Below the pieces are notes generated by a model. That model searched no databases, was not told where the DNA came from, and was given only the letters and a program-made list of their open reading frames with translations. DNA of 64,000 nucleotides, from the NCBI GenBank assembly GCA_029239875.1, contig JARBUD010000002.1:62001-126000 (forward strand), given 5' to 3'. The stretch comes from Xanthobacteraceae bacterium (lineage in GTDB: Bacteria; Pseudomonadota; Alphaproteobacteria; Rhizobiales; Xanthobacteraceae). Shown here one piece after another: positions 16,677 to 25,855 of the stretch (position 1 is the stretch's first letter; each line of letters opens with the position of its first letter). The position numbers were made by a program, and so were the translations under genes.

Positions 16677-17135
16677 TCAGAGCCTTGCCCGCGCGCTGCG
16701 TGGCGTCGCCAGCAGAAGGCTCGTCTCGCTGTTGTTGACGCCGGGGATCAGGCGGATCCGGCGCAGCACCGCGTCGAGGTCGGCCAGGGTCGCGGTGCCC
16801 AGTTCCACGATCAGGTCCCAGCGGCCATTGGTCGTATGGGTCGCCGAGACCTCGGGCAGGCCGCCGAGAACCCGGATCACCCTGTCGGTCTCGCGCCCTT
16901 CGATGCCGATCATCATGATGCCGCGCACAGGCTGGTCGACCGCATCCGCACGCAGGACGACCGTGTAGCCGACGATCCGGCCGCTGCGCTCCAGCCGGTC
17001 GAGACGGGCGCGCGCCGTGGCACGGGAGACGCCGAGGTCGCCGGCCAGCTCCGAAATGCTGCGCCTCGCGTCATGGCGGAGCAGGGTGATCAATCGCTCG
17101 TCCAGTTCGTCCAATCGGTCTTCCAATTCGCTCAA
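16677..17135 (-). CDS. Lrp/AsnC-family regulator
   Basis: A 152-residue Lrp/AsnC protein. An N-terminal winged HTH lies at about residues 10-60 (LDERLITLLRHDARRSISELAGDLGVSRATARARL), followed by a RAM ligand-sensing domain (GRWDLIVELGTATLADLDAVLRRI and PGVNNSETSLLL). It is divergent from the arginase-ornithine cyclodeaminase pair across 109 bp, so it is the likely arginine- or ornithine-responsive activator of that pair. The start is uncertain: no ATG is in frame, and the TTG at 17135 (SELEDRLDELDERL) or a TTG shortly inside are the options. Confidence 0.88.
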   Translation of the reverse strand: MSELEDRLDELDERLITLLRHDARRSISELAGDLGVSRATARARLDRLERSGRIVGYTVVLRADAVDQPVRGIMMIGIEGRETDRVIRVLGGLPEVSATHTTNGRWDLIVELGTATLADLDAVLRRIRLIPGVNNSETSLLLATPRSARARL

Positions 17136-17244
17136 TATATGGTGCCGGAATGATAAATCGAGCCGCCCGATTTGCCAAATCTGCGCGTGGGAAACGCCGC
17201 CGCAATCCGCTCTTATTGGTCCCGAACCGATCTTGGAGGGCCGG

Positions 17245-18162
17245 ATGCATTGCAGGATTCTCGGGGCACCTGTTCAGGACGGCGCCGGGCGCAAGGGGTG
17301 CGAGATGGGACCGAGTGCGCTGCGTGTCGCCGGACTGGTGGAGGCGTTGCGTGAGCTGGGTCACACCGTGGACGATCTCGGCACGCCGGCGTCGACGCCG
17401 GCGCCTGTCTCTCATCCCAATCCCCACCTGAAATCCCTGCCGGAGATCGCGGGATGGACGGCCGCGCTTGCCGAGGCGGCCTATCGCGCGAGCAATGCCG
17501 CCGTTCCCATTTTCCTCGGCGGCGACCACAGCATATCCGCCGGTACGCTAGCCGGCGTGGCGCGCCGCGCGGCGGAATCCCGGCGGCCGCTCTTCGTGCT
17601 TTGGCTGGATGCGCACACGGATTTCCATACGCTCGACAGTTCGACGAGCGGCAATCTGCACGGCGTGCCGCTCGCTTATGCCACCGGCCAGCCGGGCTTC
17701 GAGGGCTGTTTCCCGCCGCTTGCCGCCAAGGTGGAGCCGACCCACGTCTGCGCCTTCGGGGTTCGTAGCATCGATCCGGCGGAACGGATCGCCGTCGACG
17801 AGGCGGGCGTGACCCTGCACGACATGCGCGCCATAGACGAGCACGGCGTCGGCCCGCTGCTGCGCGATTTCCTCGGGCGGGTGAGCGCGGAGAACGGTCT
17901 GCTGCACGTCAGCCTCGACGTCGACTTCCTCGACCCCTCCATCGCCCCCGCGGTCGGCACCACCGTCCCCGGCGGCGCGACGTTCCGGGAGGCACACCTG
18001 GTCATGGAGATGCTGCACGACAGCGGCCGCGTCTCCAGCCTCGATCTGGTCGAGCTCAATCCCTTTCTCGACGAGCGCGGGCGTACCGCGATCCTCATGG
18101 TCGACCTCGTCGCCAGCCTCATGGGCCGGCGCATCATGGACCGGCCGACGCGGAGCTACTGA
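17245..18162 (+). CDS. rocF: Arginase
   Basis: A 305-residue arginase (L-arginine + H2O to L-ornithine + urea). Manganese-ligand motifs are GGDHS at 92-96, DAHTD at 122-126 and DVDFLDP at 225-231; the substrate loop SGNLHG is at 135-140. Length matches bacterial arginases. The ATG at 17245 follows a GGAGGG site at 17234-17239. It is followed after one base by ornithine cyclodeaminase, giving arginine to ornithine to proline. Regulation by the divergent Lrp protein is likely. Confidence 0.93.
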   Translation: MHCRILGAPVQDGAGRKGCEMGPSALRVAGLVEALRELGHTVDDLGTPASTPAPVSHPNPHLKSLPEIAGWTAALAEAAYRASNAAVPIFLGGDHSISAGTLAGVARRAAESRRPLFVLWLDAHTDFHTLDSSTSGNLHGVPLAYATGQPGFEGCFPPLAAKVEPTHVCAFGVRSIDPAERIAVDEAGVTLHDMRAIDEHGVGPLLRDFLGRVSAENGLLHVSLDVDFLDPSIAPAVGTTVPGGATFREAHLVMEMLHDSGRVSSLDLVELNPFLDERGRTAILMVDLVASLMGRRIMDRPTRSY

Positions 18163-18163
18163 G

Positions 18164-19222
18164 ATGGAAAACCGCGCCCTGAACGTCGTCCCCTTCGTCA
18201 GCGTCGACCACATGATGACGCTGGTGCTGCATGTCGGCATGGAACGCTTCCTGGTCGAGCTCGCCGAGTACATCGAAGAAGATTTCCGCCGCTGGCCCGT
18301 CTTCGACAAGACGCCGCGCGTCGCGTCGCACAGCAGCAACGGCGTGATCGAGCTGATGCCGACCAGCGACGGCGAGCTCTACGGCTTCAAATATGTCAAC
18401 GGCCATCCGCTCAACACGCGCAGCGGCCGCCAGACCGTGACCGCCTTCGGCGTGCTTGCCGATGTCGGCAGCGGCTACCCGATGCTGCTCACGGAAATGA
18501 CCATTTTGACCGCCCTGCGCACCGCTGCCATGTCGGCGCTCGCCGCCATGCATCTGGCCCCCGCGGGAGCCAGATGCATGGCGATCATCGGCAATGGTGC
18601 GCAGTCCGAATTCCAGGCGATGGCGTTCAAGGCTCTGCTCGGCATCGACAGGCTCAGGCTGTTCGACATCGACGCATCGGCCTCGCGCAGATGCGCCGCA
18701 AACCTCGGCGCCTATGGCTTCGACATCGCGATCTGCCGCTCGCCCCAGGAAGCCATCGAAGGAGCGCAGGTGATCACCACCGTCACGGCGGACAAGCAGC
18801 ACGCCACGATCCTGACCGACAACATGGTCGGGGCGGGCGTCCACATCAACGCCGTCGGCGGCGACTGTCCCGGCAAGACGGAACTGCACCGCGACATCCT
18901 CATGCGCGCCGAGATTTTCGTGGAGTATCCGCCGCAGACGCGTATCGAGGGCGAGATCCAGCAGCTGGCGGCCGACCACCCGGTCACGGAGCTGTGGCAG
19001 GTCATTTCCGGTCTGACGGCCGGGCGCCGGGACGAACGGCAGATCACCGTATTCGACTCGGTCGGCTTTGCGATCGAGGATTTCTCGGCTCTGCGCTATG
19101 TGCGGGACAAGATCCGCTCGACCGACTTCTATGACAGGCTCGATCTGCTGGCAGACCCCGACGAGCCGCGCGACCTGTTCGGCATGCTGCTGAGGCATGC
19201 CGCCAAGCACTCGGCCGCCTAG
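18164..19222 (+). CDS. ocd: Ornithine cyclodeaminase
   Basis: A 352-residue ornithine cyclodeaminase/mu-crystallin enzyme that converts L-ornithine to L-proline and ammonia using NAD. Family features are MPTSDGELYGFKYVNGHPLNT (substrate-binding region), the Rossmann loop MAIIGNGAQSEFQ, and INAVGGDCPGKTELH with the catalytic aspartate. Length is typical of the true OCD rather than the shorter alanine-dehydrogenase-like branch. It is translationally coupled to arginase (gap of one base). It ends six bases from the convergent opgH gene. Confidence 0.92.
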   Translation: MENRALNVVPFVSVDHMMTLVLHVGMERFLVELAEYIEEDFRRWPVFDKTPRVASHSSNGVIELMPTSDGELYGFKYVNGHPLNTRSGRQTVTAFGVLADVGSGYPMLLTEMTILTALRTAAMSALAAMHLAPAGARCMAIIGNGAQSEFQAMAFKALLGIDRLRLFDIDASASRRCAANLGAYGFDIAICRSPQEAIEGAQVITTVTADKQHATILTDNMVGAGVHINAVGGDCPGKTELHRDILMRAEIFVEYPPQTRIEGEIQQLAADHPVTELWQVISGLTAGRRDERQITVFDSVGFAIEDFSALRYVRDKIRSTDFYDRLDLLADPDEPRDLFGMLLRHAAKHSAA

Positions 19223-19228
19223 CCGCAG

Positions 19229-21004
19229 TCAGGCCCGGCCGGCCTCTTCCGGCGTGGCGCACAGGCCGCGGCGGACCAGCCATCGTCCCAGCGCCGGCTG
19301 CGAGGTCAGCACGGCGAAGGGCACCGCGCCGAGCAGGCCGACCAGCACCGGCAGGGCCCAGATCATGGCGCCGGGCGCGAAGGCATGGAGGATGCCGCCG
19401 AGCAGCAGCCCGAAGAGGAATTGCGGCCACAGCCCGCCAAGCGCGGTGCGCCAGGACAGGCGCTCGGCGTCGCGCGCCTGCGCCTCCCAGGTCACCGTCC
19501 GCCCAAAGGTGAGGCCGACCATGAAGATGGCGATCCGCAACGCCACCACCGGTCCCAGCAGCATGGAGAACAGGAGTTCCATCAGCGCGCCGCCGAGCAG
19601 CCGGCCCGTGCCGCCATAGCGCCGGCGCTCCCCGGGGCGCAGCAGCACGTCCATGAGGCCGGCAATCTTCGGCGCGAGGCTCATGAGGAAGGTGATCGCG
19701 AACAGCGTCAGCCCGAGCCCGGCGGGAAACGCCGCGCCGGTGCGCTCGACGTCGAAGACCTTGAGCGCGGCGAGGATCATGAAGGCGATCCAGGCGCAGG
19801 CGCCGACATACATCAGGATCGCCCAGGCGATCTGGAAGCGGCTCATCGGCAACAGGCCGGGCATAAAGAGCAGCCGCCAATACTGCATGTTGCCCTGGCA
19901 CCAGCGCAGGTCGCGCCGGGTGAACTCGGTCAGATGCGGCGGGTTCTCCTCGAAGCTCTCGGTCTCCTCCGGCAGCACGCGCACCTCGTAGCCGCCGCGG
20001 CGCATCAGCACCGCCTCGATCTGGTCGTGCGAGAGCACGGGACCCGAGAGCGGGCCGTCGCCGGGAAGTGTCGGCAGCGCGCAATGCGCCTTGAAGGGCG
20101 CGATGCGGATCAGCGCGTTGTGCCCCCAATAGGGACCGCAATCGCCCGCCCACCAGGAAGCGCCCATCGTGTAGGAGCGCATGCCGTGCCGCATGCCGAA
20201 CTGGAAGATGCGCGCGAAGGGCGACCGTGAGGGCATGCCGACGACGAGGCTCTGCAATATGCCGAGCATCGCGTTCGCCTGCATGATCCGCACCATGCGC
20301 AGGATCGTGGCCGCGCCGAGAAGGCTGTCGGCGTCGAGCACCAGCATCAGGTCGTGATCGTCGCCGTTCGTCTCGACGAAGTCGCGGATATTGCCGGCCT
20401 TGAAGCCGGCATTGTCGCTGCGGCGGCGATAGTTGAGGCGCGGTTCGGGCCCGGCTTCCGCGCGCCATGCCCGGAAGAGCTCTTCCTCGGCGGCGGCGAT
20501 GTCGTCGCGGTCGGTGTCGGAGAGGACGAACCAGGCGAAGTGCGCGCCGGCGCCGCTGCGCTCGACATCCTCGCGCATCGACCGCAGGCGGGCGAAGGCG
20601 CGCCCGGGGTCCTCGTTGCGCAGCGCCATGACCACGGCGACGCGGGTGGTGACCGGCGCATCGTCGGACGCCTTTCCCGCATAGGGATAGACCGATTGCC
20701 GCGCGTCGCCGGGCCCGTGCAGCAGCCACAGGCCGATCAGCGCGTTCCAGAAGCCGAGGATGGTCCAGGGCGTCGAGAGCCCGAACGCCAGGAGCAGCAG
20801 CCCGTCCAGGAAGCTGAAGCCATTATAGGCGAGGAGATGGGCGAACAGCCCGACGAGGCCGGCATAGGTCGCCGCATTCAGCGCCAGCACCAGCGCGCGC
20901 CGGCGGCGCAGCGCCGCCAGCGGCTGCACGCCGGTCGGCACGCAGGCTTCGCGCACTTCGGCGGCGGCGGAGAAGAGGCCGTCGACCTTCTCGTCGAGAC
21001 TCAT
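19229..21004 (-). CDS. opgH: Glucans biosynthesis glucosyltransferase MdoH/OpgH
   Basis: A 591-residue inner-membrane glucosyltransferase for osmoregulated periplasmic glucans. Two N-terminal helices precede a GT2 cytoplasmic domain with SDTDRDD, the DADS metal site in LVLDADSLLG, and the RRDLRWCQGN acceptor/processivity motif. At least five C-terminal helices follow. It is shorter than E. coli OpgH, as usual in alphaproteobacteria. The ATG at 21004 (MSLDEKVDGLF) has a GGGGAG upstream; a GTG at 21055 would add 17 residues. No opgG is adjacent in the window. Confidence 0.88.
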   Translation of the reverse strand: MSLDEKVDGLFSAAAEVREACVPTGVQPLAALRRRRALVLALNAATYAGLVGLFAHLLAYNGFSFLDGLLLLAFGLSTPWTILGFWNALIGLWLLHGPGDARQSVYPYAGKASDDAPVTTRVAVVMALRNEDPGRAFARLRSMREDVERSGAGAHFAWFVLSDTDRDDIAAAEEELFRAWRAEAGPEPRLNYRRRSDNAGFKAGNIRDFVETNGDDHDLMLVLDADSLLGAATILRMVRIMQANAMLGILQSLVVGMPSRSPFARIFQFGMRHGMRSYTMGASWWAGDCGPYWGHNALIRIAPFKAHCALPTLPGDGPLSGPVLSHDQIEAVLMRRGGYEVRVLPEETESFEENPPHLTEFTRRDLRWCQGNMQYWRLLFMPGLLPMSRFQIAWAILMYVGACAWIAFMILAALKVFDVERTGAAFPAGLGLTLFAITFLMSLAPKIAGLMDVLLRPGERRRYGGTGRLLGGALMELLFSMLLGPVVALRIAIFMVGLTFGRTVTWEAQARDAERLSWRTALGGLWPQFLFGLLLGGILHAFAPGAMIWALPVLVGLLGAVPFAVLTSQPALGRWLVRRGLCATPEEAGRA

Positions 21005-21173
21005 GCCGTCGACACACTCCCCATGAGGGCTGCCCCAAGAGGGCTGGCTCTTCACATATCCCGGACGCCGCCTCGCCCTTATCTTGTACGCCGCCTCGTC
21101 TTCGGCGCTTCACGGTTTTTTGGACCAAAGCGCGGGCGGCGGCTGTTAAGAAGGTCGTGAAGGCGGGCAGGAA

Positions 21174-22172
21174 ATGCAGTCAGCAATGCCGAAACCGGGT
21201 CACGGCACCGCGCGGCAGCTCTGGTGCGTGGGGCCGGGACGCTACGAGGTGAGGCAGGCCGCGCTCGGCGACATACCGGCCGACGGGCTGACCCTGCGCA
21301 CGATCGTCTCCGGCGTCAGCCGCGGCACGGAACGCCTCGTCTTTGAGGGCGCGGTGCCCGTGAGCGAGCATCAGAGGATGCGCGCGCCGTTCCAGCGGGG
21401 CGAGTTCCCGTTTCCCGTGCAGTATGGCTACCAGAGCGTCGGCCGCGTCGAGGCGGGGCCTGCGGAATGGCTCGGCCGCCTCGTCTTTGCCCTCCATCCG
21501 CACCAGGATGTCTATGCCCTGCCCGCCGCGTCGGTGACGCCGGTACCGGCGGGCATCCCGCCGGAGCGGGCGGTGCTGGCGGCCAATATGGAGACCGCCC
21601 TCAACGCGATGTGGGATGCCGCGGCCGGCCCCGGCGACCGCATCACCATCGTCGGCGGCGGCGTGGTCGGCCTGCTGCTCACCGCGCTCGCGGCCGCGCT
21701 GCCCGGCGCCGAGGTGACGCTGGTCGATATCAGGCCGGAGCGGGCGGCGCTGGCCGAAAGCTTCGGCGCCGCCTTCGCCTTGCCGGACACGGTGCGCGAC
21801 GATGCCGACATCGTCTTCCACGCCAGCGCCAGCGAAGCCGGGCTGAGGACGGCGCTGGCGGCTGGCGGCTTCGAGGCGCGGATCGTCGAGCTGAGCTGGT
21901 ATGGCGACCATGCGCCGTCCGTCCCCTTGGGCGAAGCCTTCCACAGCCGCCGCCTGCAGCTGATCGGCTCGCAGGTCGGCGCGGTGTCGCCCGTGCGCCG
22001 GCCGCGCTGGCCGCATGCCCGCCGGCTCGCCAAGGCGCTCGACCTGCTCCACGATGCGCGCCTCGACCGGCTGGTCACGCATGTCGTCCCGTTCGACGAG
22101 GCGCCGTCGCGCCTGCCGTCCCTGCTGGCCGGCGGAGAGGACGCGCTGGCGATCCTGCTCGATTACCGATGA
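21174..22172 (+). CDS. MDR-family dehydrogenase lacking the zinc ligands
   Basis: A 332-residue medium-chain dehydrogenase/reductase. The Rossmann motif ITIVGGGVVGLLL is intact. The positions that bind catalytic zinc in alcohol dehydrogenases are changed: the CGxCGSD region reads SGVSRGTER, and the GHE region reads YGYQS. This SGxSxGTE signature recalls the BchC-like branch. Substrate is unknown. It is the first of four same-strand genes with a PTPS-fold protein, a glycosyltransferase and a methyltransferase. It is divergent from opgH with a gap of about 170 bp. The ATG at 21174 is one of two close starts (also 21186). Confidence 0.82.
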   Translation: MQSAMPKPGHGTARQLWCVGPGRYEVRQAALGDIPADGLTLRTIVSGVSRGTERLVFEGAVPVSEHQRMRAPFQRGEFPFPVQYGYQSVGRVEAGPAEWLGRLVFALHPHQDVYALPAASVTPVPAGIPPERAVLAANMETALNAMWDAAAGPGDRITIVGGGVVGLLLTALAAALPGAEVTLVDIRPERAALAESFGAAFALPDTVRDDADIVFHASASEAGLRTALAAGGFEARIVELSWYGDHAPSVPLGEAFHSRRLQLIGSQVGAVSPVRRPRWPHARRLAKALDLLHDARLDRLVTHVVPFDEAPSRLPSLLAGGEDALAILLDYR

Positions 22173-22181
22173 GGAAACAGC

Positions 22182-22583
22182 ATGTACTGCGTCGAGGTCC
22201 GCGACCGGATCATGATCGCCCACTCCCTGCCCGACCCGTTCTTCGGACCGGCGCAGGGCCTGCACGGCGCGACCTTCGTGGTCGACGTCGCCTTCTTCCG
22301 TGAGAGCCTGACGGCTAAGAACGTCGTCGTCGACATCGGCGCCGCGCTCGACGTCCTGAAGGAAACGCTGAAGCCGCTCGCCTACCAGAACCTCGACACG
22401 CTGCCGGAATTCGCCGGCACGCTCACCACCACCGAGTTCCTGGCGAAGCACATCTTCGATGCCATGGCCGCCGCCGCGCGAAGCGGTGCGCTGGGCGAGG
22501 ATGCCGACGGCCTCGCCAGGATCCGGGTGACGCTGCACGAGACCGATCTTGCACGTGCCAGCTATGAAGGCGGGCTGCGGTGA
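22182..22583 (+). CDS. 6-pyruvoyl-tetrahydropterin synthase/QueD-fold protein, atypical active site
   Basis: A 133-residue T-fold protein of the QueD/PTPS family. Two zinc-type histidines remain, H14 (IAHSLP) and H28 (GLHGAT). By alignment from memory to E. coli QueD (C27, H31, H33, D70, H71, E110), the catalytic cysteine is A24, the third zinc ligand is A30 and the Asp-His pair is A67-Y68; only the glutamate (E120, LHET) is kept. Normal QueD/PTPS chemistry is therefore unlikely, and it may bind a pterin or catalyse a different step. It lies nine bases after the MDR gene and ten before the glycosyltransferase. Confidence 0.85.
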   Translation: MYCVEVRDRIMIAHSLPDPFFGPAQGLHGATFVVDVAFFRESLTAKNVVVDIGAALDVLKETLKPLAYQNLDTLPEFAGTLTTTEFLAKHIFDAMAAAARSGALGEDADGLARIRVTLHETDLARASYEGGLR

Positions 22584-22593
22584 GGACCATCGC

Positions 22594-23640
22594 GTGACCG
22601 GCTTCGCCTTCGCCATTCCCGGCGACATCGACCTTCCCACCGGCGGCTATGGCTATGACCGGCGCATCATCACGGAGGGCCGCCGCGCCGGCTGCGACGT
22701 GACGCATGTCGCCCTGCCCGGCGGATTTCCCTTTCCGACCCCACAGGAGCTGGCCGAGAGCGAGGCGCGGCTGAAGGCGGCTCCGGGGGGGCAGGTGCTG
22801 TTCATCGACGGGCTCGCCTTCAGCGCCTTGCCGGCGGAACTGCTGCGCGGCCTCGACCGCCCGCTCGTCGCCCTCGTCCATCACCCGCTGGCGCTGGAAG
22901 AGGGGCTCGACGAGGCGCAGAAGGCCCGCTTCGCCGCCAGCGAGCGCGCCGCCCTTGCGCTCGCCTCGGCGGTCATCGCCACCAGCCCCTCGACCGCCCG
23001 CCTGCTGGAGCACGACTATGGCGTCGAGCCCGGCCGGCTCGTCGTCGCCCTGCCCGGCACCGATCCGCGCCCGCGCGCCCGCGGCACCGGCACGCCGGTG
23101 CGCCTGCTCAGCATCGGCACGGTCATCCCGCGCAAGGCGCATGGCGTGCTCGTCGAGGCGCTGGCCGCGCTGGCCTCGTTCGACTGGACCTGCCGCATCG
23201 TCGGGGCGACCGATCGCGACGCCGAGGAGACGCGGCGGCTGCGCCGGGCCATCGCGGCGCACGGGCTCGGCGACCGCGTCACGCTGACCGGTGCGCTTCT
23301 GGGCGAGGCGCTGGAGCGCGAGTTCGACGCCGCCGACATCTTCGTCACGGCCTCGCTGTTCGAGGGCTACGGCATGGCGCTGACCGAGGCGCTGGCGCAC
23401 GGGCTCCCCGTCGTGGCGACACGCGGCGGCGCAATCCCCGACACGGTGCCCACGTCCGCTTCCGTGCTGGTCGCGCCGAGCGACGTGGCCGGCCTCACTG
23501 ATGGCCTCGGCTCGCTGCTGCGCGATCCCGACCGCCGGAAGGCCCTGGCGCAGAACGCCTGGGACTATGCGGCATCGCTCCCCGACTGGCCCTCGACCGC
23601 GGCAACCATCGCGGCGGTGCTGCGGGACGTGGCGCGATGA
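22594..23640 (+). CDS. GT4-type glycosyltransferase of the pterin-like cluster
   Basis: A 348-residue glycosyltransferase. The N-terminal domain starts FAFAIPGDIDLPTGGYGYDRRII (acceptor-side GG loop). The C-terminal donor domain has LLSIGTVIPRKAHGVLVEAL and FVTASLFEGYGMALTEALAHGLPVVAT (EX7E). Start is the GTG at 22594 with GGTGAGGA upstream; frames further upstream overlap the QueD-like gene. It overlaps the methyltransferase by four bases (ATGA at 23637). The nucleotide sugar and acceptor are not evident; the neighbours suggest a small heterocyclic acceptor. Confidence 0.85.
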   Translation: MTGFAFAIPGDIDLPTGGYGYDRRIITEGRRAGCDVTHVALPGGFPFPTPQELAESEARLKAAPGGQVLFIDGLAFSALPAELLRGLDRPLVALVHHPLALEEGLDEAQKARFAASERAALALASAVIATSPSTARLLEHDYGVEPGRLVVALPGTDPRPRARGTGTPVRLLSIGTVIPRKAHGVLVEALAALASFDWTCRIVGATDRDAEETRRLRRAIAAHGLGDRVTLTGALLGEALEREFDAADIFVTASLFEGYGMALTEALAHGLPVVATRGGAIPDTVPTSASVLVAPSDVAGLTDGLGSLLRDPDRRKALAQNAWDYAASLPDWPSTAATIAAVLRDVAR

Positions 23641-24473
23641 GCGGCTTCGATGCCGGCTGGCTCGCCCTGCGCGAGCCCGCCGACCACGCCTCCCGACACG
23701 CCGGGCTGACCGCGAAGGTGCGCGAGCATTTCGCCGGACGGGAGTCGCTCGTCGTGGTCGATCTTGGCTGCGGGACGGGCTCGAACCTGCGGGCGCTGGC
23801 GCCCTCGCTGCCGCCCCGCCAGCACTGGCACCTGATCGACGGCGATCCCGCCTTGCTGGCGGCGGCGCGGCAGCGCCTCAGCGACTGGGCCGACGACGCC
23901 AGCCCAACCGCCGCCGGCATCGAGCTGCACAAGGACGGAAGCCGGATCGAGGTCGGCTTCGAATGCGCTGATCTTACGACCCGCGACCTCGACTTCGCCG
24001 ATCTCGGCGCCGGGCTCATCACGGCCTCGGCGCTGTTCGACCTCGTCTCGCAGGACTGGCTGGAGCGGCTGGTTGCCTGCTCGGCGCGGCGGCGCGTGCC
24101 GCTCTATTCCGTGCTGAACTATGACGGCACCGCCCGCTGGCAGCCGGAGAACCCGCTCGATGCCCGCGTGGTCGCCGCCTTCAACCGCCACCAGCGCATG
24201 GACAAGGGCTTCGGGCCGGCGCTGGGGCCCGCCGCCGGCGAGACCTTCGCGCGATTGCTGTCGCTGCACGGCTATTCCGCCGCCTCGGGCGACAGTCCGT
24301 GGGAGCTCCGGGAGCAGGACGCTGCGCTGATCGCCCGCCTCGCGGAAGGCTTCGCCCGCGCCGCCAGCGAGATCGAGCCGGAGGCGCGCGACGCCTATGC
24401 GCGATGGGCGGCGGATCGCGCCGCGGCGGTACGGCTGACGATCGGCCATCGCGACGTCTTCGCCGCGAAGTAA
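23637..24473 (+). CDS. Class I SAM-dependent methyltransferase
   Basis: A 278-residue Rossmann methyltransferase. Motif I is VVDLGCGTGSNLRAL near residue 40, followed by the acidic LIDGDPALLAAA. The C-terminal region (RWAADRAAAVRLTIGHRDVFAAK) has no further domain. The gene is translationally coupled to the glycosyltransferase and ends the plus-strand part of the cluster, 19 bases from the convergent cytochrome b561. The substrate is unknown; methylation of the glycosylated product is inference from the coupling. Confidence 0.85.
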   Translation: MSGFDAGWLALREPADHASRHAGLTAKVREHFAGRESLVVVDLGCGTGSNLRALAPSLPPRQHWHLIDGDPALLAAARQRLSDWADDASPTAAGIELHKDGSRIEVGFECADLTTRDLDFADLGAGLITASALFDLVSQDWLERLVACSARRRVPLYSVLNYDGTARWQPENPLDARVVAAFNRHQRMDKGFGPALGPAAGETFARLLSLHGYSAASGDSPWELREQDAALIARLAEGFARAASEIEPEARDAYARWAADRAAAVRLTIGHRDVFAAK

Positions 24474-24492
24474 CCGGGCCGCCCCGGGCGCT

Positions 24493-25068
24493 TCAGCCCG
24501 GCGGCCACATGCGCCGCATCACCCCGTCATGCTTGATGAAGCGATGGCGCAGCGCCGCCGCGATATGGAGGAGCGCCAGGGCTGCCAGCAGCAGCGCGAG
24601 CAGGCCGTGGACGCCGAGAATCCGGTTGGCGAGCGGCTCGTTCGGGGGAAGAATCGCCGGCAGGCTGAACAGCCCGAAGATGTCGAGAGCGGGATAGGCG
24701 GAGACGCCGGCCCAGCCGAGCACGGGAACGACCAGCAGCAGCACATAGAGCGCGTAATGGACGATGCGCGAGACGATGCGCTCGAACGGCGTGAGCGTCG
24801 CCACCGGCGGCGGCGCGCCGCGTCCGAGCCTCACCAGCACGCGCAGCACGATCAGCCAGAGCACGGTGAAGCCGAGCAGCTTGTGCAGGCTGTAGAGCGA
24901 ACCCGTCGTCGCGTCGAAATTCGTCGCCTGGCCGCGGGCGACCATGTAGAGCCCGAGCGGAAGCTGGCAGATCACGAAGGCCGCCACGATCCAGTGCAGC
25001 CTCCGCGCGGCAAGGCTGTAGCGGACGGGCTCGGCGGCGCTCGCACCACCCTCGTCAGGGAACGGCAT
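24493..25068 (-). CDS. Cytochrome b561 family membrane protein
   Basis: A 191-residue di-heme b561 with four helices. Candidate heme histidines are in RRLHWIVAAF, SLHKLLGF, IVHYALYV and LLHIAAALRHRF. The ATG at 25068 has a GGGGGGA site directly upstream and overlaps the RibD-like gene by 14 bases, so the two are coupled. The pairing of a b561 with a reductase gene suggests, but does not prove, that they work in one redox pathway. The N-terminal 20 residues are acidic and cytoplasmic. Confidence 0.87.
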   Translation of the reverse strand: MPFPDEGGASAAEPVRYSLAARRLHWIVAAFVICQLPLGLYMVARGQATNFDATTGSLYSLHKLLGFTVLWLIVLRVLVRLGRGAPPPVATLTPFERIVSRIVHYALYVLLLVVPVLGWAGVSAYPALDIFGLFSLPAILPPNEPLANRILGVHGLLALLLAALALLHIAAALRHRFIKHDGVMRRMWPPG

Positions 25069-25855
25069 CACTCCCCCCTTCGGCCACGCTGCGCAGATCG
25101 CAATCATAGAGAATATTGCCGTCGTCGAGCAGATAGGTCCGCGCGCGCGGACGCAGCGCGTCGTCGAGCTCGTCGATCGGCCTGAGCGCGAGCCCCGGCC
25201 GCCCCGATCCCAGGATGATCGGCGAGAGGCAGATGTGCAGGCGGTCGACCAGCCCGGCATCGATGAAGCGCGAAACCGTCGAGGCGCCGCCCTCGACCAG
25301 GATGGTCCGGTGGCCGCGTGCCGCCAGGGCGGCGATCAGCCGGGCTGGATTGAAGATGTCGGGGTCGTGGTCGGTGCCGATGCGTTCGACCTCGTCCGGC
25401 CATCCCTGCGCATTCTCCGAGAACACGATGCGCCGGCAACCATCCTCGCGCAGCCATCGCGACTGGCGCGACGACCGGCCGCTCGGGTCGATGACGGCGC
25501 GCGCCGGGCTGCGGCCCGGCACCCGCCGCGTGGTGAGAAGGGGATCGTCGGCCAGCACGGTGCCGACGCCGACGAGCACCACATCGGCGATGGCGCGCAG
25601 CCGGTGCAGGTGATCGAGGCCGCAGCAGCCGTTGATGTCGCGGGACTTTCCCGTCGGCGTCGCGATCCGCCCGTCGAGCGACTGGCCGAGCTGCGCGATC
25701 ACGAACGGCGAATTCAGATGCCGACGGATCGGCTCATAGAGCGCGGCCAGCGGATCGAGCGGCGTTTCGCGACGATTCAAGACAGGCTCCCCTGCGTGGC
25801 GGTTGGGCGAATGCGGCGCGTCGATCAGATCGGTCCTTCCCGGCAGGGCATCCAT
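25055..25855 (-). CDS. RibD C-terminal-type reductase
   Basis: A 266-residue stand-alone RibD reductase domain, in the riboflavin pyrimidine reductase/DHFR-like fold. Features are FVIAQLGQSLDGRIAT, DVVLVGVGTVLADDPLLTTR (NADPH and substrate) and TILVEGGASTVSRFIDAGLVDRL. No deaminase domain (HAE, PCxxC) is present. It faces the QueD-like cluster convergently and may reduce a GTP-derived pyrimidine or pterin intermediate there (inference). The ATG at 25855 was chosen; an upstream ATG at 25888 would add 11 residues. It overlaps the b561 gene by 14 bases. Confidence 0.85.
   Translation of the reverse strand: MDALPGRTDLIDAPHSPNRHAGEPVLNRRETPLDPLAALYEPIRRHLNSPFVIAQLGQSLDGRIATPTGKSRDINGCCGLDHLHRLRAIADVVLVGVGTVLADDPLLTTRRVPGRSPARAVIDPSGRSSRQSRWLREDGCRRIVFSENAQGWPDEVERIGTDHDPDIFNPARLIAALAARGHRTILVEGGASTVSRFIDAGLVDRLHICLSPIILGSGRPGLALRPIDELDDALRPRARTYLLDDGNILYDCDLRSVAEGGSDAVP

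Follow-up and report, generated by a model that had tools for sequence, protein, structure and literature searches.

A gene set built around a protein of the PTPS-IV subfamily recurs as a tightly conserved and horizontally mobile unit, on plasmids and chromosomes of distant bacteria, and its probable product is a GTP-derived molecule carrying sugar and methyl groups. We describe it in a stretch of 64,000 nucleotides (hereafter the window; contig JARBUD010000002.1, positions 62,001 to 126,000) from a Xanthobacteraceae bacterium with a 5.07-Mb genome, whose closest named relatives, judged by the QueD-like (PTPS-IV) protein, belong to Ancylobacter. The gene for this protein is accompanied in the window by genes for an MDR-superfamily dehydrogenase, a GT4-family glycosyltransferase, a methyltransferase, a cytochrome b561 and a RibD-like reductase. 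All six are open and intact, and their coordinates, reading frames and Pfam matches confirm the original prediction of four tightly spaced genes facing the reductase and b561 genes.

The gene set is conserved as a unit

We profiled 138 loci: the window, 80 loci from named relatives (the best 80 of 552 relatives, which lean toward close kin), 40 further genome stretches and 17 plasmid loci. Counts were made on the 103 loci with at least 6 kb on each side and a GT4 hit, scoring partners within 6.5 kb. Methyltransferase and MDR genes were found in 101 and 99 of them, respectively, and genes for the RibD-like reductase, an OpgH-type membrane glucosyltransferase and b561 in 69, 68 and 65. RibA, a GTP cyclohydrolase II (GCH II), was present in 49, FkbM in 44 and a CDP-alcohol phosphatidyltransferase in 15. 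Creatininase-family genes accompany some loci (5 of the 103 at a strict threshold, under which two Streptomyces genes of about 120 bits fall). Among the loci dropped for a flank below 6 kb or for lack of a GT4 hit are L158, L185, L186 and L191, where PTPS-IV is retained but its surroundings are different or incomplete. Regarding gene order, the MDR, PTPS-IV and GT4 genes were adjacent and in the same order in all 30 loci fetched, and the methyltransferase gene came next after GT4 in 29 of them, a RibD-like gene taking that place in the remaining one (L029). Seventeen additional loci, eight of them from genomes outside the class, were counted apart from the 103; they contained the MDR (17), GT4 (16), RibD (16), methyltransferase (10), CDP-alcohol transferase (9), RibA (8) and creatininase (3) genes, with an OpgH gene nearby in five.

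For comparison, we scanned 61 related genomes (the window's own included), 34 of which carry a PTPS-IV gene and 27 of which do not. At 11 control loci from these genomes, all with ordinary QueD/PTPS genes, none of the partner families was found. Because the set recurs in 103 loci and at none of the controls, its association is not random, and the genes co-occur as a unit, as had been proposed. We consider a shared pathway well supported. Besides, in 80 loci the distance matrices of the genes from the five core families correlate with r values of 0.67 to 0.84, which shared ancestry alone could explain.

The QueD-like protein belongs to PTPS-IV

The QueD-like gene (22182–22583, plus strand) encodes a COG0720 protein that matches PF01242 (PTPS) with 72.3 bits against a cut-off of 22.4. 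Its residues 21–25 read FGPAQ, the published signature of PTPS-IV. We aligned 17 such sequences, covering alphaproteobacteria, Thiodictyon, Streptomyces, Arthrobacter and Microbacterium, and found the signature exact in 16 of them (L185 has FGSAQ). In comparison with QueD and a PTPS of solved structure, the HGH motif is changed to HGA, and the Asp-His pair to a variable residue followed by Tyr. The HGA motif and the Tyr in place of the catalytic His are present in all 17 sequences, and so are His14, His28, Ala30, Asp51, Tyr68, Asp72, Thr84, Glu85 and Glu120. We take the replaced positions to be zinc-binding and Cys and His catalytic residues of PTPS, and Glu120 to be the glutamate that anchors the pterin; both equivalences lean in part on general PTPS enzymology. 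Since the changed residues are fixed in every aligned sequence, we read the active site as altered yet conserved, not decayed. The protein had been called a degenerate QueD; its QueD motif is indeed changed, but it represents a conserved subfamily.

We tested the window protein for membership in the described PTPS groups. QueD (PTPS-I) was rejected, with 29.7 bits against an equivalog cut-off of 89.25 and HGA in place of the end of CxxxHGH. With no HGH present, the CxxxxxHGH motif of the biopterin enzymes (PTPS-II) and the ExxHGH motif of the folate enzymes (PTPS-III) are absent too. The sole solved relative, in a single-sequence search at E ≤ 0.001, was 3d7j (E 3.9e-38), the SCO6650 protein of Streptomyces coelicolor, whose entry is titled 'uncharacterized protein'. 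The window's copy is the only PTPS protein of its genome, and an ordinary PTPS gene is additionally present in 2 of the 34 PTPS-IV genomes.

PTPS-IV is not always bound to the cluster, since two Streptomyces plasmids carry it alone. In these (L185:9001-9426 and L186:9001-9399), the PTPS-IV gene lies near genes for MEKHLA-domain, cupin and MBL-fold proteins, a second kind of setting for it.

GCH II, and not GCH I, is linked to PTPS-IV together with a RibD-type reductase

The RibD-like gene (25055–25855, minus strand) encodes a single-domain reductase whose only Pfam match is RibD_C (PF01872, 129.1 bits, cut-off 24.1); no deaminase domain was found in it. It scored 92.4 bits against TIGR00326, the model of the bifunctional deaminase-reductase RibD (cut-off 156.35), and 87.3 bits against TIGR01508, the model of archaeal/fungal-order reductases of 2,5-diamino-6-ribosylamino-pyrimidinone phosphate (DARPP; cut-off 186.45). 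Its best solved relative is 6p8c, named a DARPP reductase (E 5.1e-26); 2azn was matched too, and the protein aligns full-length with DARPP reductases. As the same genome holds three further RibD_C matches, one of them in a 440-residue frame of full-RibD size elsewhere, the window's reductase is an extra copy. Among the 34 carriers of PTPS-IV, 30 have a RibD_C match within about 4 kb of the PTPS-like gene (all but G001, G032, G055 and G060). Side by side, two Streptomyces loci differ at this position: in S. fungicidicus (L181:11605-12645) the place expected for RibD has no listed gene, in an incomplete gene table, and no profile hit, and S. globisporus (L190) shows a RibD hit there.

In 16 of the 34 genomes, PTPS-IV has a strong GCH II gene (PF00925, 160 bits or more) no further than 5 kb away. 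Anywhere in the genome, such a gene was present in 17 of the 34 and in 3 of the 27 others (Fisher p 0.002, a test that ignores relatedness). GTP cyclohydrolase I (GCH I) is present in all 61 genomes and linked to PTPS-IV in none of the 34, lying on another contig or at least about 131 kb away; FolE2 was found in none of the 61. The genome of the window has no strong GCH II gene, and its single PF00925 match (102 bits, on another contig) falls in a 442-residue frame that is probably a RibBA. The linked GTP cyclohydrolase that the original prediction had in mind therefore exists in relatives, but it is of type II and not I, and none stands beside the window's copy.

The RibA proteins of the loci are conserved at the motifs inspected: all 59 found keep the HSxC..CxC zinc motif, and all 50 whose motif our pattern could read keep the Tyr before QEGRG. 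In S. coelicolor, a GCH II is reportedly altered at the tyrosine before QEGR, and we expected the same in the creatininase loci. This was not supported, as the Tyr is kept in L160, L161, L178 and, by eye, L190; the check did not extend to the creatininase loci L147 and L181. BrbF, a member of the creatininase family, deformylates a formylated precursor of DARPP (PMC9478397), and where a creatininase gene accompanies the cluster, it might encode a deformylase.

Core enzymes and gene layout

The plus-strand genes follow the order MDR, QueD-like, GT4 and methyltransferase; the first two gaps measure 9 and 10 bases, and the last two genes overlap by 4 bases. Opposed to them on the minus strand are the b561 and RibD-like genes, which overlap each other. 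The MDR gene (21174–22172) matches PF00107 (ADH_zinc_N) with 35.4 bits (cut-off 31.8). Its structural model (pLDDT 92.8) most resembles alcohol and polyol dehydrogenases, with 14–22% identity among the 50 matches listed. Membership in BchC was rejected (41.2 bits, equivalog cut-off 291.25). The GT4 gene (22594–23640, GTG start) encodes group-1 glycosyltransferase domains by Pfam (Glycos_transf_1, 91.1 bits, cut-off 26.4), and similarity gave no clue to its acceptor. The methyltransferase gene (23637–24473) encodes a class I S-adenosylmethionine-dependent enzyme (PF13649, Methyltransf_25, 36.5 bits, cut-off 27) whose model (pLDDT 95.9) shows a generic methyltransferase fold only. The b561 gene (24493–25068) belongs to the prokaryotic type (PF01292, Ni_hydr_CYTB, 101 bits, cut-off 30.1).

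The six genes originally described are real, but the unit is wider. Directly left of the MDR gene and divergent from it is the recurrent OpgH-type gene (19229–21055, minus strand), which passes the OpgH/MdoH equivalog model (NCBIfam NF003963, 999.2 bits, cut-off 884). On the other side, rightward beyond the RibD-like gene, lie a Nudix gene and NadE. Of the 80 named loci, one gave a NadE match (26% identity) and none a Nudix match, so we do not count them as part of the unit. Left of OpgH, at 17017–19222, are tandem arginase-like (by eye) and ornithine cyclodeaminase (by Pfam) genes that appear ordinary.

Two membrane enzymes alternate

Within 6.5 kb, the OpgH and CDP-alcohol phosphatidyltransferase genes never occurred together in the 103 loci: 68 had the former, 15 the latter and 20 neither (Fisher p 8e-9). 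In 47 more diverse loci the corresponding numbers were 17, 15 and 15, again with none holding both (p 2.4e-4); relatedness among loci inflates both p-values. In two of the 17 additional loci, the cluster bears the transferase and there is an OpgH gene 10 kb away. We infer that the alternation reflects two routes to a late membrane step, which some lineages do without.

Other recurrent neighbours were seen around these genes. A conserved protein of about 362 residues (L055:5151-6236 and 46 others), mostly left of OpgH, is present in 47 of the 121 clustered loci, and the one protein tested gave no Pfam match. A membrane protein of about 788 residues (L090:14775-17138 and 29 others), weakly similar to PMT_2/YfhO, usually follows RibA and is present in 30 of the 121. 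In the rhizobial plasmid loci L188, L193 and L195, a flippase-like LPG_synthase_TM gene and an annotated sulfatase gene lie beside the CDP-alcohol transferase.

Distribution on plasmids and in small genomes

The PTPS-IV gene is common: among the genomes sampled, 36 of 289 from the class (weakest E 1.1e-40) and 22 of 349 from the phylum (E < 1e-50) gave strong matches, the window's own counted in both. The unit is present in eight genomes outside the class. Besides, 20 plasmid records matched, of which we examined 17; carriers include Streptomyces fungicidicus, S. globisporus, Microbacterium, the gammaproteobacterium Thiodictyon, Palleronia, rhizobia and Methylosinus. The S. globisporus plasmid brings together CDP-alcohol transferase, MDR, PTPS-IV, GT4, methyltransferase, RibD, creatininase and RibA genes, and an Arthrobacter plasmid has MDR, PTPS-IV and GT4 only. 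In the plasmid records the MDR protein is labelled a zinc-binding alcohol dehydrogenase. Viral contigs gave eight pattern matches, none of them a relative.

Two small alphaproteobacterial genomes, G221 (1.6 Mb, 94% complete, locus L160) and G319 (1.4 Mb, 96% complete, locus L161), retain the MDR, PTPS-IV, GT4, methyltransferase, RibD, RibA and creatininase genes; OpgH, CDP-alcohol transferase and b561 were not found in either. The survival of the core genes in genomes of this size suggests a useful product. ENA collections also contain close relatives of the protein, among them one that has a Tara record.

A proposed pathway from GTP and the alternatives to it

The reading we put forward, with a confidence that stops just short of even, is a mobile biosynthetic cluster that turns GTP into a diaminopyrimidine and then into its ribityl form, which is remodelled by PTPS-IV and the MDR enzyme, glycosylated, methylated and passed to a membrane step. 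What the analysis shows directly is the gene content, its conservation, the residue changes, the link to GCH II in place of GCH I and the alternating membrane enzymes; every chemical step, and the product, is deduced. GCH II would open GTP to DARPP, supplied by the clustered RibA in many relatives and, in the host of the window, probably by the RibBA-like protein. The single-domain reductase would then convert the ribose of DARPP to a ribityl chain; because it has no deaminase domain, deamination would be skipped and the 2-amino, guanine- or pterin-like ring kept. PTPS-IV, which retains His14, His28, Asp51 and Glu120, may hold this ring through the retained glutamate and perform a different step on the ring or side chain, a change that could be tied to the loss of one zinc ligand and of the catalytic Cys and His. 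The MDR enzyme might oxidize or reduce the polyol side chain, and GT4 and the methyltransferase would decorate the compound. Finally, a membrane enzyme (of OpgH type or a CDP-alcohol phosphatidyltransferase), often together with b561, would place the product in or at the envelope in most loci. In its boldest form, the cluster would make a new class of conjugates, ribityl-pyrimidines or pterins derived from GTP, anchored in the envelope through a glycan or lipid and turned by b561 into a membrane redox group, and it would have spread by plasmids among proteobacteria and actinomycetes; we regard this extension as speculative and unlikely.

Several observations weigh against this pathway. RibA is not near the cluster in the window nor in 54 of the 103 loci, RibD is missing from the vicinity in 34, and neither membrane enzyme was found in 20. 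The absence of OpgH, CDP-alcohol transferase and b561 from the 1.4–1.6 Mb genomes means that the membrane step is not universal. The methyltransferase was not recognized in 7 of the 17 additional loci, and neither it nor GT4 shows a similarity that would indicate a pteridine acceptor. The one creatininase-type protein tested (L190) falls far below the ArfB cut-off (34.4 bits against 180) and is nearer to MftE (125 against 172). The Streptomyces plasmids L185 and L186 have PTPS-IV without the cluster. As for the statistics, 6 of the 11 control loci end at a contig end on one side, and the loci share descent, so that p-values overstate their independence.

How do other explanations fare against the same evidence? 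A branch of riboflavin metabolism, in which RibA and RibD provide early intermediates for a modified flavin, a deazaflavin or a riboflavin back-up, would explain why RibA, RibD and creatininase, all families used in riboflavin synthesis, come together. A role of PTPS-IV in archaeal F420 synthesis, stated as unpublished (PMC5041015), would fit a riboflavin-type intermediate, but not the present gene set. The reductase of the window lacks the deaminase domain, however, a separate frame of full-RibD size exists in its genome, and RibH and RibE were not recognized among the recurrent neighbour families, though no profile search aimed at these two was made; we consider this branch rather improbable. 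An assembly route for envelope glycans or lipids, in which the PTPS-like, RibD-like and MDR proteins have come to act on unrelated sugars or polyols, would account for the OpgH, CDP-alcohol transferase, flippase-like, FkbM and b561 neighbours and for the likeness of the MDR model to alcohol and polyol dehydrogenases. It sits poorly with the full-length alignment of the RibD-like protein to DARPP reductases, with the recurrence of GCH II genes that keep their zinc motif and with the glutamate retained in PTPS-IV as the presumed pterin anchor, and we judge it unlikely.

A cyanopterin- or limipterin-type pathway to pteridine glycosides, starting from GCH I and dihydroneopterin triphosphate, is less probable still. 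The PTPS family, a reductase, a glycosyltransferase and a methyltransferase do occur together here, and GT4 weakly matches 5ze7, the UDP-glucose:tetrahydrobiopterin glucosyltransferase (E 3.6e-4); but it is far closer to other glycosyltransferases (best E 1.2e-18), GCH I is linked in none of the 34 genomes and FolE2 was found in none of the 61, PTPS-IV differs from PTPS at zinc and catalytic residues, and such a route has no role for RibD and RibA. Finally, a chance neighbourhood of genes with no common pathway is suggested only by the mixed families of the window itself, and is already contradicted by the conservation across 103 loci, the plasmid copies in Actinomycetota and a gammaproteobacterium and the control loci devoid of partners; we hold it to be extremely improbable.

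Relation to known systems and significance

We then compared the cluster with described systems, and the defining features that we tested for the queuosine, folate, riboflavin and biopterin pathways were absent, in agreement with the original prediction. QueD has the Pfam PTPS family in common with the window protein, which lacks its CxxxHGH motif. The RibA/RibD/BrbF-ArfB route to riboflavin shares the GCH II, RibD_C reductase and creatininase families, but the RibD of the cluster has no deaminase, is extra to a full-size RibD and is joined to PTPS-IV, GT4, methyltransferase and MDR genes. Pteridine glycosyltransferase systems, such as Chlorobium CtPGT (PMC5683033) and cyanobacterial BGluT (5ze7), combine a glycosyltransferase with pterin-type chemistry; in contrast, the cluster has no linked GCH I, an altered PTPS site and a GT4 that is weakly BGluT-like.

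The closest precedent is the PTPS-IV subfamily of COG0720 itself, reported in 2017 as AGeNNT cluster-node 62 with 561 sequences and with PF00925 and RibD_C (PF01872) as neighbours (PMC5445326). The window's cluster resembles it in the FGPAQ signature and the RibD_C neighbour, with no RibA beside the window's copy, and across our loci both neighbours recur at the frequencies given above. That paper terms PF00925 a GTP cyclohydrolase I/FolE2, whereas the Pfam model itself is GTP_cyclohydro2. Its section on PTPS-IV, supplement aside, names only these two neighbours, and mentions neither the MDR, GT4, methyltransferase, OpgH, CDP-alcohol transferase and b561 partners nor the plasmid copies. In S. 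coelicolor, SCO6655 is listed as a GCH II (PMC2853524); it stands five locus tags from SCO6650, which suggests, from numbering alone, that the two are linked. Our literature search, whose scope did not take in the original SCO6650/SCO6655 papers, returned no description of the full cluster, its product or its pathway. The claim of an undescribed system was therefore only partly right: PTPS-IV and its GCH II/RibD neighbours had been noted in 2017, and a structure (3d7j) exists, but neither the product nor the complete cluster appears in the literature searched.

The enzyme family in which PTPS-IV forms a named subfamily is well studied. Public plasmid records treat its members as queuosine genes, labelling them 6-carboxytetrahydropterin synthase with a queuosine GO term, though the QueD motif is absent. 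The cluster described here ties PTPS-IV to GCH II and a riboflavin-type reductase, not to GCH I; this linkage predicts the substrate class of PTPS-IV and makes its function testable.

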